From: Stenotrophomonas sp. 24(2023)
Lineage (GTDB): Bacteria > Pseudomonadota > Gammaproteobacteria > Xanthomonadales > Xanthomonadaceae
Direction of reading: 5' to 3'
Length of the DNA stretch: 64,000 bases
NCBI RefSeq assembly: GCF_030913365.1
Contig: NZ_CP133160.1
Coordinates: 1,116,001-1,180,000, forward strand
Position 1 is the first letter of the stretch; the number at the start of each line of letters is the position of its first letter. Below are positions 16,710 to 29,269 of this stretch, piece after piece. The position numbers were made by a program, and so were the translations under genes. Below the pieces are notes generated by a model. It was given only the letters and a program-made list of their open reading frames with translations. It had not been told where the DNA came from and did no database searches.

Positions 16710-17486
16710 TCATTCATCGAAGCGCAGGTGGCGGACCGACTTGCCGTTGCGCCGGATAAGCTTAAGCGCCTCGATGCCGATCTGGATATGGTTTTCCACG
16801 AACTGGGAGCTGACCTTGGCATCGGAGGCCTCGGTCTTGACCCCGTCCGGGACCATCGGCTGGTCCGATACCAGCAGCAGGGCACCGCTGGGAATGTGGT
16901 TGGCGAAGCCGGCGGCGAACACGGTGGCCGTTTCCATGTCGATGGCCATGCAGCGCATGGCCCGCAGGCGCTCCTTGAAGGCCTCGTCGTGTTCCCAGAC
17001 CCGGCGGTTGGTGGTGTAGACGGTGCCGGTCCAGTAGTCATGGCCCAGGTCGCGGATCATCGTGGACACCGCGCGCTGCAGGGCGAACGCCGGCAGCGCC
17101 GGCACCTCCGGCGGCAGGTAATCGCTGGACGTGCCCTCGCCGCGGATGGCGGCGATCGGCAGGATCAGGTCGCCCAGCTGGTTCTTGCGCTTGAGGCCAC
17201 CGCACTTGCCCAGGAACAGCACCGCCTTGGGCATCACCGCCGAGAGCAGGTCCATGATGATCGCCGCGTTCGGGCTGCCCATGCCGAAGTTGATCAGGGT
17301 GATGCCATCGGCGGTGGCACTGGCCATCGGGCGGTCCAGGCCGACGATGGGGGCACCGGTCAGCTCGGAAAAGGTATGCAGGTAGCCGCCGAAGTTGGTC
17401 AGCAGGATGTGTTCGCCGAACTGGTCCAGCGGCACGCCGGTGTAGCGTGGCAGCCAGTTGTCGACAATGTCCTTCTTGCTTTTCAT
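16710..17486 (-). CDS. amn: AMP nucleosidase, short form (catalytic domain only)
   Basis: A 258-residue protein of the PNP/UDP phosphorylase superfamily. Motifs include HILLTNFGGY, LINFGMGSPNAAI, LFLGKCGGLK and AIDMETATVFAAGF, the last matching the E-M-E-type ribose-binding segment, then VSDQPMVPDG with the catalytic Asp. The expected reaction is AMP to adenine plus ribose-5-phosphate. E. coli Amn is about 480 residues because of an extra N-terminal regulatory domain; this gene encodes only the catalytic part, as seen in related xanthomonads. The start at 17486 has GGAG 9 bases upstream. It precedes the DUF924 gene on the same strand. Confidence 0.85.
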   Translation of the reverse strand: MKSKKDIVDNWLPRYTGVPLDQFGEHILLTNFGGYLHTFSELTGAPIVGLDRPMASATADGITLINFGMGSPNAAIIMDLLSAVMPKAVLFLGKCGGLKRKNQLGDLILPIAAIRGEGTSSDYLPPEVPALPAFALQRAVSTMIRDLGHDYWTGTVYTTNRRVWEHDEAFKERLRAMRCMAIDMETATVFAAGFANHIPSGALLLVSDQPMVPDGVKTEASDAKVSSQFVENHIQIGIEALKLIRRNGKSVRHLRFDE

Positions 17487-26385: not shown

Positions 26386-26413
26386 ACTATACTGGGGGAC
26401 AGTATAATGAAAA
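26386..26413 (-). promoter_or_regulatory. FrmR operator overlapping the frmR promoter
   Basis: A perfect 7-bp inverted repeat, TATACTG (26388-26394) and CAGTATA (26400-26406), flanks the G-rich spacer GGGGA. This matches the AT-arms and G-tract layout of known FrmR/RcnR operators. On the minus strand a plausible -10 TATAGT (26391-26386) and -35 TTTTCA (26413-26408) with a 16-bp spacer bracket the repeat, so repressor binding would block RNA polymerase. A TATAAT on the plus strand at 26403-26408 lacks a good -35. Confidence 0.8.
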
Positions 26414-26634
26414 GGGCGCCGGATGGCAGCGGCGCCCCTGCACCGGGGCCCGCACGGCCGGTGGCCACGGGATGGCCACGGGCACATCATCCTTGGAAGT
26501 CCGCACGACCACCGGTTACCATGCGGCGATGGCCACGCCATGACACCGCCTTGTGGGGGCATGTCTTTTGGAGAGCCCGGTTTTCCGGGAGAGAGAGGGT
26601 TCGATGCCCTCCTTGCCCACCCATCCGGACACGC

Positions 26635-28368
26635 ATGAAATTTCACGTCACCCTGCTGTGGAAAACGGTTCTCCCGCTTGGCGCAGCATTGCATGAGCTC
26701 TGCCGTCCCCATGGTCTGTTCAACCGCGCAGGCGGCAGGACCTTCGTCCGTTCGCTGGGCGGGGATTTCCATCTGCAGGACGCACCGGTGGTGCTGGCCC
26801 CCACCGACAGGTTCCACCACGCGCTGCGCGACGTCCGGGCGGCCCTGGGCATTGCGGAAAACCGCTTTCCCTACCGCCATGCGTTCGTATTGCCCGGCCA
26901 GTCCACCGGCGTCAACTATGCCTTCCACGTGCATGGCCAGGTGCTGTGCACGACCGTGCAGCTGTCGATGCTGGACATCGATGAGCAGACCGACTGGGGC
27001 GGGCTGCAGAAGCTGGCGTCGCTGCACGACCTGTGGGAACTGAGCCGGCAGATCCTGGCCATCACGGCATCGGGCAGCATGACCCCGGCATTGGCCCCGT
27101 CGCCGCAGATACTGCCGGCACTGCATGTCCAGGCCTCGGGCATTCCCTGCGAACCGGTCAACGAGCGCCTGGCAAGTGCACTGACCGGGCATCCCGGCCT
27201 GAACGCTGGCATCGTGCGCACCGTGCTGGAGAAGAACCAGGCACACCAGCTGGATGACACGTTGCTGCTGGCCGACAAGCAAGGGCTTGCCGCCTATGTG
27301 CCGGCGCATGCCCCCCCCGATGCGGCACGGATGAACCTCAAGCGGTTCCACAATGCTGCGGCAATGCTGGAACTGGCCGCCGTGACGCGCTACCAGCTGC
27401 GCGGGCGCCAGCCTGTCAGCGCCGATCTGGCCGCCGCCATCGGTGACCCCGCCGCGTCCATCACCGGCAGCATCTCCGGCCAGAAAATCTGGTCCCTGCT
27501 CACCCGGGAATTCGCATTGCCGGCACTGCTGGCACGGTTGAACACCGCCGCCGCAGCGCCCACCGCCCACGCCCCGCCTTCCACGCTTCCGCTCCCCTCC
27601 AGGCCGCCCACCATGACGACCCCTTCCACCCGCCTGCTCATCATCACGGTTACCGACGTGGAATCACGGGCGTTGCGCGATGCGCTTGTCCAGGCCACCG
27701 GGCAGGAGGCAGTCCCCCTCCGCATCGACAACTTCACCTACCGCGATTTCGGCATGCTGGGGGATTTCCAGGTCTTCCACCAGATCTCGGGCATGGGTTC
27801 GGGCGGGCTGGACGGATCGCAGGAGTCCATCCGCCGCAGCATCGAGGCGATCAAGCCCGATGCCGTGCTGATGGTGGGCATCGCCTTTGGTACCGACCGG
27901 AAGAAGCAGCCCATCGGCACCCTGCTGGTCTCCGGACAGATCCAGTCCTACGAGCTGCAGCGGATCAACAACGATGGTTCGATCAGGCTGCGCGGGGACA
28001 AGGCCACCGCTTCCCCGGCCATGTTGAACTGGGTCCAGCATGCACAACTGTGCTGGCCGCAGGAGGCTGCCAAGCTCAAGATCGGCCTCATCCTCAGCGG
28101 CGAAAAGCTGATCGACAACCTCGACTACCGGGATGCGATCCTGGCCATGGCACCCGAAGCCATCGGCGGGGAGATGGAAGGCGCCGGGCTGTACGTCGCC
28201 GGACGGAACGCCAATGTCCAATGGCTGCTGGTCAAGGCGGTCTGTGACTGGGCGGATGGAAAGAAATCAACGAACAAGACGCAGAACCAGCAACAGGCGG
28301 CGGAGTCCGCAGCGGCGTTCACGGTACACCTGCTGCGGGAAAACACGGTGCCCCGCACCCGGTCGTGA
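26635..28368 (+). CDS. Two-domain orphan: unknown N-terminal region fused to a nucleoside phosphorylase/nucleosidase domain
   Basis: A 577-residue soluble protein. Residues 1-305 match no family I recognise; they contain an aromatic/His-rich patch (YRHAFVLPGQSTGVNYAFHVH, residues 80-100) and a helical segment near 232-255 (MNLKRFHNAAAMLELAAVT). A Pro/Ala-rich linker (about 306-328) leads to a PNP/MTA-nucleosidase-fold domain from residue 333 (LLIITVTDVESRAL) with MVGIAFG (413-419), LSGEKLIDN, the ribose-binding GGEMEGAG (511-518) and the catalytic-Asp loop CDWAD (537-541), so an active N-glycosidase or phosphorylase is likely. An internal ATG at 27613 could make the domain alone. It is an accessory-looking gene between the frm operon and a convergent LysR gene; anti-phage ATP nucleosidases share this fold. 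Confidence 0.75.
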   Translation: MKFHVTLLWKTVLPLGAALHELCRPHGLFNRAGGRTFVRSLGGDFHLQDAPVVLAPTDRFHHALRDVRAALGIAENRFPYRHAFVLPGQSTGVNYAFHVHGQVLCTTVQLSMLDIDEQTDWGGLQKLASLHDLWELSRQILAITASGSMTPALAPSPQILPALHVQASGIPCEPVNERLASALTGHPGLNAGIVRTVLEKNQAHQLDDTLLLADKQGLAAYVPAHAPPDAARMNLKRFHNAAAMLELAAVTRYQLRGRQPVSADLAAAIGDPAASITGSISGQKIWSLLTREFALPALLARLNTAAAAPTAHAPPSTLPLPSRPPTMTTPSTRLLIITVTDVESRALRDALVQATGQEAVPLRIDNFTYRDFGMLGDFQVFHQISGMGSGGLDGSQESIRRSIEAIKPDAVLMVGIAFGTDRKKQPIGTLLVSGQIQSYELQRINNDGSIRLRGDKATASPAMLNWVQHAQLCWPQEAAKLKIGLILSGEKLIDNLDYRDAILAMAPEAIGGEMEGAGLYVAGRNANVQWLLVKAVCDWADGKKSTNKTQNQQQAAESAAAFTVHLLRENTVPRTRS

Positions 28369-28384
28369 CTCCCCGCAGGCCGCG

Positions 28385-29269
28385 CTACTCGCGCAGCATG
28401 TCCACGAACGCCCGCAGGGCAGCGGTCATCTGCCGCTGCTTGGGGTAGTACAGCGCAAAGCCCGGGAACACATCGCACCAGTCTTCCAGCACCGCCACCA
28501 TGCGGCCATCGTCCAGATAAGGCCGCGCAGCGTCCTCCAGCACGTAGGACAGGCCGATGCCATCAAGCACCGCACCGATGATGCTGCTCTGGTTGCCCAG
28601 GGTCAGCCGCCCGGGCACGTCCACCTCCAGCGCCTGGCCGTCGCGCTCGAACTGCCACTTGTAGACGCGGCCGCTCACGAAGCGGAAACGGATGCACTCA
28701 TGCTGGACCAGCTCGCGCGGGTGCCGGGGCGCCGGCCGGCGCTGCAGGTAGGCCGGCGAGGCCACGATCAGGCCACGCAGCGGCGGCCCCAACGGCACCG
28801 CCACCATGTCTTCCGGTACCGATTCATGCAGGCGCACGCCTGCGTCGTACCCATCGGCCACGATGTCCACCAGGTCCTCGTCTTCGGTCAGCTCGACCCG
28901 CACGTCCGGGTGCAGCTGCAGGAAACGCACCAGCCGCGGCCGCAGCTGGGTGCCCACCGCCGCACGCGTGGCGTTGATGCGCAGCAGGCCGGCCGGCGCG
29001 GCGCGGAAGCGGTTCATCTCTTCCAACGCCTCGTTCACCTGCTCCAGTGCAGGCTGCAGGCGTTCCAGCAGGCGCTGGCCGGCTTCAGTGGGGGCCACGC
29101 TGCGCGTGGTGCGGTGGAACAGGCCCACCCCCAGCCGTTCCTCCAGCGCGCGGATGGCATAACTGACCGCCGAGGTCGACAAGCCCAGCTCAGCCCCCGC
29201 ACGACGGAAGTTGCGGTGGCGGGCGACGGCGGCGAAGGCGGCCAGATGGGTGAGGTTGTCCGAAGCCAC
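28385..29269 (-). CDS. LysR-family transcriptional regulator
   Basis: A 294-residue LysR regulator: winged helix-turn-helix at residues 5-63 (LAAFAAVARHRNFRRAGAELGLSTSAVSYAIRALEERLG), then a substrate-binding domain (LLRINATRAAVGTQLRPRLV onward). The start is a GTG at 29269 with AGGA 5 bases upstream. It is divergent from the alcohol dehydrogenase gene across 107 bp, the classical arrangement in which a LysR protein controls its divergent neighbour. The gap contains AT-rich interrupted inverted sequences but no unambiguous T-N11-A site. Confidence 0.9.
   Translation of the reverse strand: MASDNLTHLAAFAAVARHRNFRRAGAELGLSTSAVSYAIRALEERLGVGLFHRTTRSVAPTEAGQRLLERLQPALEQVNEALEEMNRFRAAPAGLLRINATRAAVGTQLRPRLVRFLQLHPDVRVELTEDEDLVDIVADGYDAGVRLHESVPEDMVAVPLGPPLRGLIVASPAYLQRRPAPRHPRELVQHECIRFRFVSGRVYKWQFERDGQALEVDVPGRLTLGNQSSIIGAVLDGIGLSYVLEDAARPYLDDGRMVAVLEDWCDVFPGFALYYPKQRQMTAALRAFVDMLRE

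Follow-up and report, generated by a model that had tools for sequence, protein, structure and literature searches.

What is made by a gene that joins about 300 residues of no recognisable family to a nucleosidase domain and that lies between formaldehyde genes and a LysR gene? We examined this question in a stretch of 64,000 nucleotides from Stenotrophomonas sp. 24(2023) (contig NZ_CP133160.1), referred to here as the window, with coordinates counted from its first letter. An earlier note, made from the letters alone, had proposed a single-gene immune or stress effector whose N-terminal part senses infection or stress. This interpretation is partly supported, and its main line, a conflict effector, is plausible. 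The "single-gene" label has to be given up, because a tRNA-like RNA element at 26557-26621, missed in that note, goes with the gene. A better description of the locus pairs the gene with a tRNA-like RNA, of which the N-terminal domain (N-domain) is the probable reader. The features are as follows.

26557..26621, plus strand: tRNA-like RNA element, 3' end 13 nt ahead of the start codon
26557..26563, plus strand: 5' strand of the acceptor-like stem, pairing with 26612-26618 (6 of 7 pairs)
26595..26611, plus strand: T-arm GAGGG-TTCGATG-CCCTC, 23 bases ahead of the start codon
26635..28368, plus strand: gene of the two-domain protein, 577 aa, stop included; homologues span the frame
26635..27555, plus strand: N-domain, residues 1-307, mixed alpha/beta, without a family
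27556..27624, plus strand: Pro/Ala-rich linker, residues 308-330, pLDDT <50 over 310-330
27625..28347, plus strand: nucleosidase domain, residues 331-571, PNP/MTAN fold
27661..27663, plus strand: E343 codon, aligned to the catalytic Glu of MTA/SAH nucleosidase, the mutant in PDB title 1z5n
27961..27963, plus strand: R443 codon, Arg throughout the clade (11/11 rows) but Ala in the row of MTA/SAH nucleosidase
28105..28107, plus strand: K491 codon, Lys throughout the clade (11/11 rows) but Gln in the row of MTA/SAH nucleosidase
28174..28179, plus strand: M514-E515 codons, invariant Met-Glu pair
28246..28248, plus strand: D538 codon, invariant catalytic Asp, the mutant in PDB title 1z5o

Protein architecture and the nucleosidase domain

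The 577-aa frame is coding, since full-length homologues in Duganella aceris (42% identity) and Luteibacter rhizovicinus (41% identity) cover it, and the ATG at 26635 is the same start as in three homologues; the frame called in the earlier note is thereby confirmed. In the whole protein Pfam recognises PF01048 alone (residues 399-568, E = 6.4e-12, 45.8 bits versus a gathering score of 25.1), and the first 300 residues give no match at E ≤ 10, in keeping with the note's description of this part as family-less. A PHROGs search with the protein gave nothing below E = 0.14. AlphaFold2, run with a 10-row alignment, predicts that a disordered linker connects two folded parts (mean pLDDT 79.6, pTM 0.53), and the N-domain modelled alone from 3 rows reaches a pTM of 0.85 and a pLDDT of 80.5. 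The N-domain contains a conserved stretch, [KR]NxxHxxDxxxLLxDxQGxxxYxP, at residues 200-223. The Pro/Ala-rich linker previously described is present, but in its long form it is a trait of the window protein, three relatives having a version shorter by some 20 residues.

Profile score, fold, and catalytic residues all place the C-terminal part in the PNP superfamily (PF01048). The motifs MVGIAFG, GGEMEGAG, and CDWAD are intact, as the first reading had it, and E343, M514-E515, and D538 are conserved. In an alignment of 19 rows, these four residues match those of MTA/SAH nucleosidase (MTAN); we take Glu12 and Asp197 of the Escherichia coli enzyme to be the equivalents of E343 and D538. MTA/SAH nucleosidases are also the nearest solved structures to the C-terminal part (best E = 2.1e-16, MTAN fold). 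Two basic residues, R443 and K491, placed by the alignment and not by a ligand model, are invariant in the 11 rows of the clade described below. Position 443 is also Arg in Paraburkholderia caribensis and is Lys in domains L094, L097, and L116, while position 491 is Lys in the same three domains and Val in P. caribensis. L094 and L097 both come from a single Leptolyngbya protein, as its two PNP domains, and the ATPase part of that protein falls short of the Pfam cut-offs; L116 is a 1195-aa frame. The stretch around residue 443 presumably lies over the sugar on its 5' side, where a charge would suit phosphate, and the clade's basic residues may favor a phosphorylated substrate such as ATP or dATP.

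The evidence of NCBIfam cut-offs, trees, and distribution (see below for the last) led us to reject a housekeeping nucleosidase. At E ≤ 10 NCBIfam gives 11 families, each of which scores below its cut-off; for the MTA/SAH nucleosidase equivalogs the scores are 44.2 versus 169 (NF004079) and 18.4 versus 73.8 (TIGR01704). We inferred trees from 33 and 31 PF01048 domains (28 from a PF01048 search plus five loci), the smaller one leaving out the long-branched L115 and also L109, which duplicates L004. In these trees, which contain several long rows and leave the deep branching order without resolution, the window domain forms a group with those of Luteibacter and Duganella (100/99). This group is nested in a clade that counts 12 rows (95/99) or 11 rows (99/99) and consists of the window domain plus 10 further distinct ones. 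The single MTAN row (L099), the DeoD row, and those rows that bear a phosphorylase or AMP nucleosidase name fall outside this clade in both trees, as do L094, L097, and L116, which lie in a part without resolution. The grouping with MTA/SAH nucleosidases for which the earlier note had allowed thus did not occur, either by the cut-offs or in the two trees. The CBASS "PN-superfamily" effector model of PADLOC, which has no curated cut-off, matches the protein at 4.7e-13, with a best stretch of residues 482-567 on profile positions 416-498 of 506; this match is limited to the nucleosidase part.

Besides this gene, the PF01048 search of the same genome found an S-methyl-5'-thioinosine phosphorylase and an AMP nucleosidase and no separate MTA/SAH nucleosidase. 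The window itself holds a second PF01048 gene (16770-17312, minus strand), an AMP nucleosidase over the NF005500 cut-off and an ordinary metabolic gene.

Sporadic distribution and genomic neighbors

The setting is as the earlier note gave it. To the left of the gene lie frmR/adhC/fghA-like formaldehyde genes on the minus strand (names from reading of the sequences and not from a profile search), and to the right a convergent LysR gene (28385-29269, minus strand; likewise named from its sequence), the 3' end of which is 16 bases past the nucleosidase gene stop. The gene has a codon score of 0.25 and a GC3 of 0.828, versus 0.32-0.51 and 0.866-0.911 in eight neighbors (an fghA-like row read out of frame is excluded), the codon model having been trained on the window's own long frames, which include the neighbors and probably the gene itself.

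The gene is present in 1 of 91 genomes of the genus (one genome per species), which rules out the universal core gene also considered in the first reading. All 91 genomes match some part of the flanking stretch; among the matches listed, at least 68 genomes have both flanks on one contig, and 60 of these intervals were fetched and 8 left out. The segment from the formaldehyde repressor to LysR (window 26407-28386) is a variable insertion site in the genus, with intervals of 387-14206 bases (median 5051). No relative of the protein is encoded in the 60 intervals at E ≤ 1, with the window and Duganella serving as positive controls. We scanned 37 of 51 cluster representatives (the 14 left out include a 2,938-aa frame); PADLOC recognised 0 of the 37, and the best 25 of 51 Pfam families are metabolic and regulatory, with one Imm70 and one integrase core. 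A defence hotspot at this position was rejected on these grounds: the intervals hold ordinary genes, and the site is a variable metabolic one and no defence island.

The N-domain was found at four loci in all (the window, Duganella, Luteibacter, and P. caribensis), with 30-36% identity in all six pairs. A four-row profile detected it in 2 of 398 genomes of the order (the source genome and Luteibacter), 1 of 398 of the phylum and 1 of 369 of the class (the source genome in both cases), and 1 of 343 of the Duganella family (Duganella), these genome samples overlapping. A single record among 72,556 plasmids, that of P. caribensis, carries it. The N-domain is absent from IMG/VR viral contigs, and the full protein matched no phage record, so that a phage origin was discarded. 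Neither PDB sequences (E ≤ 10) nor a Foldseek search of PDB and viral models (E ≤ 0.001) yielded a relative. Chains of short-Argonaute systems make up 4 of the 12 best Foldseek rows, but they are no evidence of kinship because their E values are 0.23-0.61, their TM scores reach 0.16 at most, and the entries are related. No Piwi gene was detected at E ≤ 0.01 in any of the four genomes or records, a threshold that a very divergent one could escape, and Argonaute kinship was rejected. The class search concerned with APAZ proteins gave just two long frames in 258 genomes.

Mobile or candidate-defence genes occur beside the three homologues. Upstream of the Duganella gene there are integrase, PIN-domain, relaxase, and ParA-like genes, and the next gene downstream encodes an AAA_13 ATPase that matches PDC-S06 (1044 bits). 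In Luteibacter, the next called upstream gene, on the other strand, is a RelA/SpoT gene matching PDC-S33 (5.5e-85); PDC-M30A-like and DUF5131 genes are present as well, and filamentous-phage genes lie downstream. The P. caribensis gene is flanked on both sides by transposase genes. PDC labels denote candidates, the abbreviation standing for phage defence candidate (PMC11514479). By eye or among those neighbors that were scanned, no adjacent nucleotidyltransferase, kinase, or response regulator was recognised. The immune or stress effector of the earlier note therefore holds up as far as the gene is non-housekeeping and non-core and its homologues adjoin such genes, but its own site speaks against it. 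A 63-aa frame comes after the Luteibacter gene.

Other members of the nucleosidase clade are joined to further domains. L011 has TPRs, and L013, a close relative cut by a contig end and too short for the trees, has NB-ARC and TPRs. L005 (2115-6230, from a Nitrospirae MAG) combines the nucleosidase with an HsdR-type part, like a type I restriction R subunit, in one frame that could be an assembly error, and has a TRADD-like_N match under the cut-off (22.9 versus 23.7). L009 has a SLOG-like stretch that is also under its cut-off (22.4 versus 26.3). No other domain exceeds its cut-off in L004, L006, L007, L010, or L016, and the gene adjoining that of L010 matches PDC-M65B (3.9e-30). One clade member (L090, 1-735, minus strand) lies on an IMG/VR viral contig with an integrase-like gene. 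Such domains are given as conflict effectors in two papers (PMC7159879, PMC8195603).

A tRNA-like RNA ahead of each N-domain gene

All four N-domain genes are preceded by a tRNA-like element of 65-70 nt with an acceptor arm and a T arm with a TTCGANN loop, a new observation. The homologous elements are located as follows.

L002 9919-9987: Duganella element, 13 nt to the start codon
L003 9906-9975: Luteibacter element, 19 nt to the start codon
L015 9919-9985: P. caribensis element, 15 nt to the start codon

The common design consists of a 7-base stem with halves about 50 bases apart, a middle of 31-36 bases, the T-arm, and a final ACC or GCC. In the window, a scan for the T-arm returned this match alone, with 0 mismatches; 2 of 100 shuffles matched at ≤ 2 mismatches. 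The acceptor stems differ in sequence (GGGCAUG in the window, GGAUAGG in Duganella, CGACAGG in Luteibacter, and GGACGGG in P. caribensis), and their partners co-change, so that 6, 7, 6, and 7 of 7 pairs, respectively, are formed. When the four elements are aligned, 39 of 40 cells pair (97.5%), and 4 of 10 pairs have changes on both sides, a number reached in 0 of 500 shuffles (mean 0.9); stem pairs 6 and 7 were excluded from this count because gaps displace them. In a sliding control, which is biased toward the structure because the structure was drawn from the same four sequences, pairing falls to 47.5-67.5%. The covariation evidence consists of four sequences because the N-domain loci number only four here.

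In minimum-energy folds, the Duganella, Luteibacter, and P. caribensis elements are cloverleaf-like with short middle arms, and the middle loop has 4 nt in the folds of Duganella and P. caribensis. The fold of the window element is less clean, retaining the outer stem and merging the two middle arms into one hairpin. The elements have the acceptor stem and the T-arm with TTCRANN loop of a tRNA-like RNA, and they lack the 7-nt anticodon loop, full length, and CCA-ready end of a functional tRNA, being 65-70 nt long and ending in ACC or GCC. From the fold shapes and short middle arms, the element is tRNA-like yet shorter than a tRNA. At gathering scores Rfam leaves it unmatched; at a relaxed threshold, it matches mascRNA-menRNA (19.6 bits versus a cut-off of 42.5), which we take to be a tRNA-like RNA. 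The source genome contains the element once; at E ≤ 1 the search returned a single further match, of 26 bases at 85% identity (E = 0.3). The interval from frmR to the gene contains short frames only, and one of these, of 71 aa, covers the RNA element and overlaps the start codon by four bases; as a small partner protein it was taken for chance.

A motif scan of 860,411 bases, duplicates included, found the four N-domain elements and three other places. One of these is in L016 (3904-3971), where the nucleosidase gene lies more than 3 kb away, while L049 and L061 each carry a similar stretch. Shuffled sequence gave 0 matches in 2,564,000 bases on both strands. A covariance model, which recovers the four by construction, detected no further element at E ≤ 0.01 in 18 sources. 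A weak match of 21 bits (E = 0.043) lies in the Verrucomicrobia locus L010 (4118-4176, minus strand), nearly 6 kb from the nucleosidase domain. No element was found upstream of other clade members; for L013, L014, and L007 the sequence ahead of the gene is short or missing, and part of L008 is masked. The nucleosidase domains of the window, Duganella, and Luteibacter are 51-55% identical, whereas that of P. caribensis is only 21-22% identical to the others. Because P. caribensis keeps both the RNA and the N-domain despite its divergent nucleosidase, and no element was found ahead of the clade's other fusions for which upstream sequence was present, the RNA tracks the N-domain. These identities also suggest an effector swap in P. 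caribensis; this enzyme exchange remains a suggestion, since an AU test does not reject a single nucleosidase clade (p = 0.124).

A proposed mechanism, its rivals, and known systems

By a narrow measure, we favor a conflict effector that was acquired horizontally and is most likely directed against phage. It would consist of one gene and one RNA, and its N-domain would read a tRNA-like RNA and gate base release from a nucleotide. The N-domain would bind the RNA encoded ahead of its own gene, either as part of the leader or after it has been cut free. In the RNA-bound state, the nucleosidase domain would be kept inactive or its translation held down. Attack on tRNA is a common theme of phage-host conflict, and an infection that attacks or alters tRNA, or brings a competing RNA, might change the RNA or the grip of the N-domain on it. 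The nucleosidase domain would then release the base from an adenine nucleotide, for example ATP or dATP, by hydrolysis of the N-glycosidic bond, and loss of the nucleotide pool would stop both phage and cell. More tentatively, the locus may be a new immune system of two parts, in which the tRNA mimic is a bait watched by the N-domain and its damage or displacement during infection frees an ATP-class nucleosidase, with the N-domain and RNA forming a unit that became joined to two nucleosidase lineages.

The same effector could instead carry the element as a leader for feedback control of its own translation, sensing being left to something else. The E. coli thrS mRNA has such a tRNA-like leader just ahead of the start codon, which the protein binds, lowering its own translation, and the elements described here end 13-19 nt ahead of the start codon in all four cases, where the ribosome would bind. 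Unlike thrS, which encodes a tRNA synthetase, the gene here encodes a nucleosidase effector. The present observations fit the leader reading and the favored one alike, both needing the N-domain to know the RNA; we regard the leader reading as unlikely. A module for maintenance of, or competition between, mobile elements, not specifically anti-phage, in which RNA checks a toxic nucleosidase, would fit the mobile neighbors of the homologues, the viral contig that carries a clade member close to an integrase, and the position of the RNA immediately ahead of the gene. Type III toxin-antitoxin systems likewise encode an RNA directly ahead of a harmful enzyme gene. The type III antitoxins known to us are repeat arrays, though, and the locus has one tRNA-like element and an enzyme that is no RNase; the HsdR and NB-ARC/TPR architectures of other clade members, moreover, are defence-like, which leaves this explanation improbable.

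We hold it similarly improbable that the protein was acquired by chance and serves metabolism, as a nucleosidase for MTA/SAH or some other nucleoside to which a regulatory domain is attached. It has the fold and catalytic Glu, Met-Glu, and Asp of MtnN/Pfs, its nearest solved structures are MTA/SAH nucleosidases, and its genome has just two other PF01048 genes. Unlike MtnN/Pfs, the protein scores far under the family cut-offs (44.2 bits versus 169), stands apart from the single MTAN row in both trees, has an extra domain of 307 residues, and is sporadic, being missing from 90 of 91 genomes of the genus; the neighbors of its homologues are non-metabolic. Still less credible is an element that is integration-site scrap, with the gene as the first cargo at the junction. 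The 3' ends of tRNA genes are usual integration sites, and the Duganella homologue sits in an integrase-bearing element. The 5' half of the stem is present too and co-changes with the 3' half, however, the genome of the window lacks a second copy of the element, and the Duganella integrase gene is more than 6 kb away.

The closest known systems are the PNP/ATP-nucleosidase immune effectors (Cap17 of CBASS, Detocs, and those associated with pAgo, DRT8, and NLRs; Rousset et al. 2023, as cited in PMC10952713, PMC11249213, and PMC9966839). The window protein resembles them in its PF01048 domain, which has intact catalytic residues and is fused to another domain, and it gives the match to the PADLOC "PN-superfamily" model described above. 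A table in PMC10952713 lists PNP effectors as degrading (d)ATP. Basic residues at positions 443 and 491 are common to the window protein, the Leptolyngbya PNP domains L094 and L097, and L116 (Lys at both). The window protein differs from the PNP immune effectors in its new-family N-domain, the tRNA-like RNA ahead of the gene, and its surroundings, where no nucleotidyltransferase, kinase, NTPase, or Argonaute was recognised. The known immune effectors with this fold respond to second messengers, phosphorelay partners, Argonautes, or NLR-type ATPases; if a tRNA-like RNA took the place of these switches, it would tie nucleotide depletion to tRNA attack with one gene and one small RNA. APAZ/short Argonautes are the source of the four non-significant Foldseek rows of the N-domain, and the search at E ≤ 0.01 detected no Piwi gene. 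In a literature search whose reach mostly excluded subscription papers and bioRxiv, none of the titles listed mentioned either this architecture or a nucleosidase with a tRNA-like RNA next to it.

Two plasmid loci show further arrangements of the enzyme. On plasmid pA of Rhizobium etli (L016, 7182-12465), a nucleosidase of the clade is joined to another N-terminal part without a family, and the genes after it comprise one with a weak match to an oxidoreductase, an HD gene, and one for a DNA methyltransferase. On a Leptolyngbya boryana plasmid (L017, 6933-9830), two PNP domains are combined with an ATPase part under Pfam cut-offs, and TPR genes come next.
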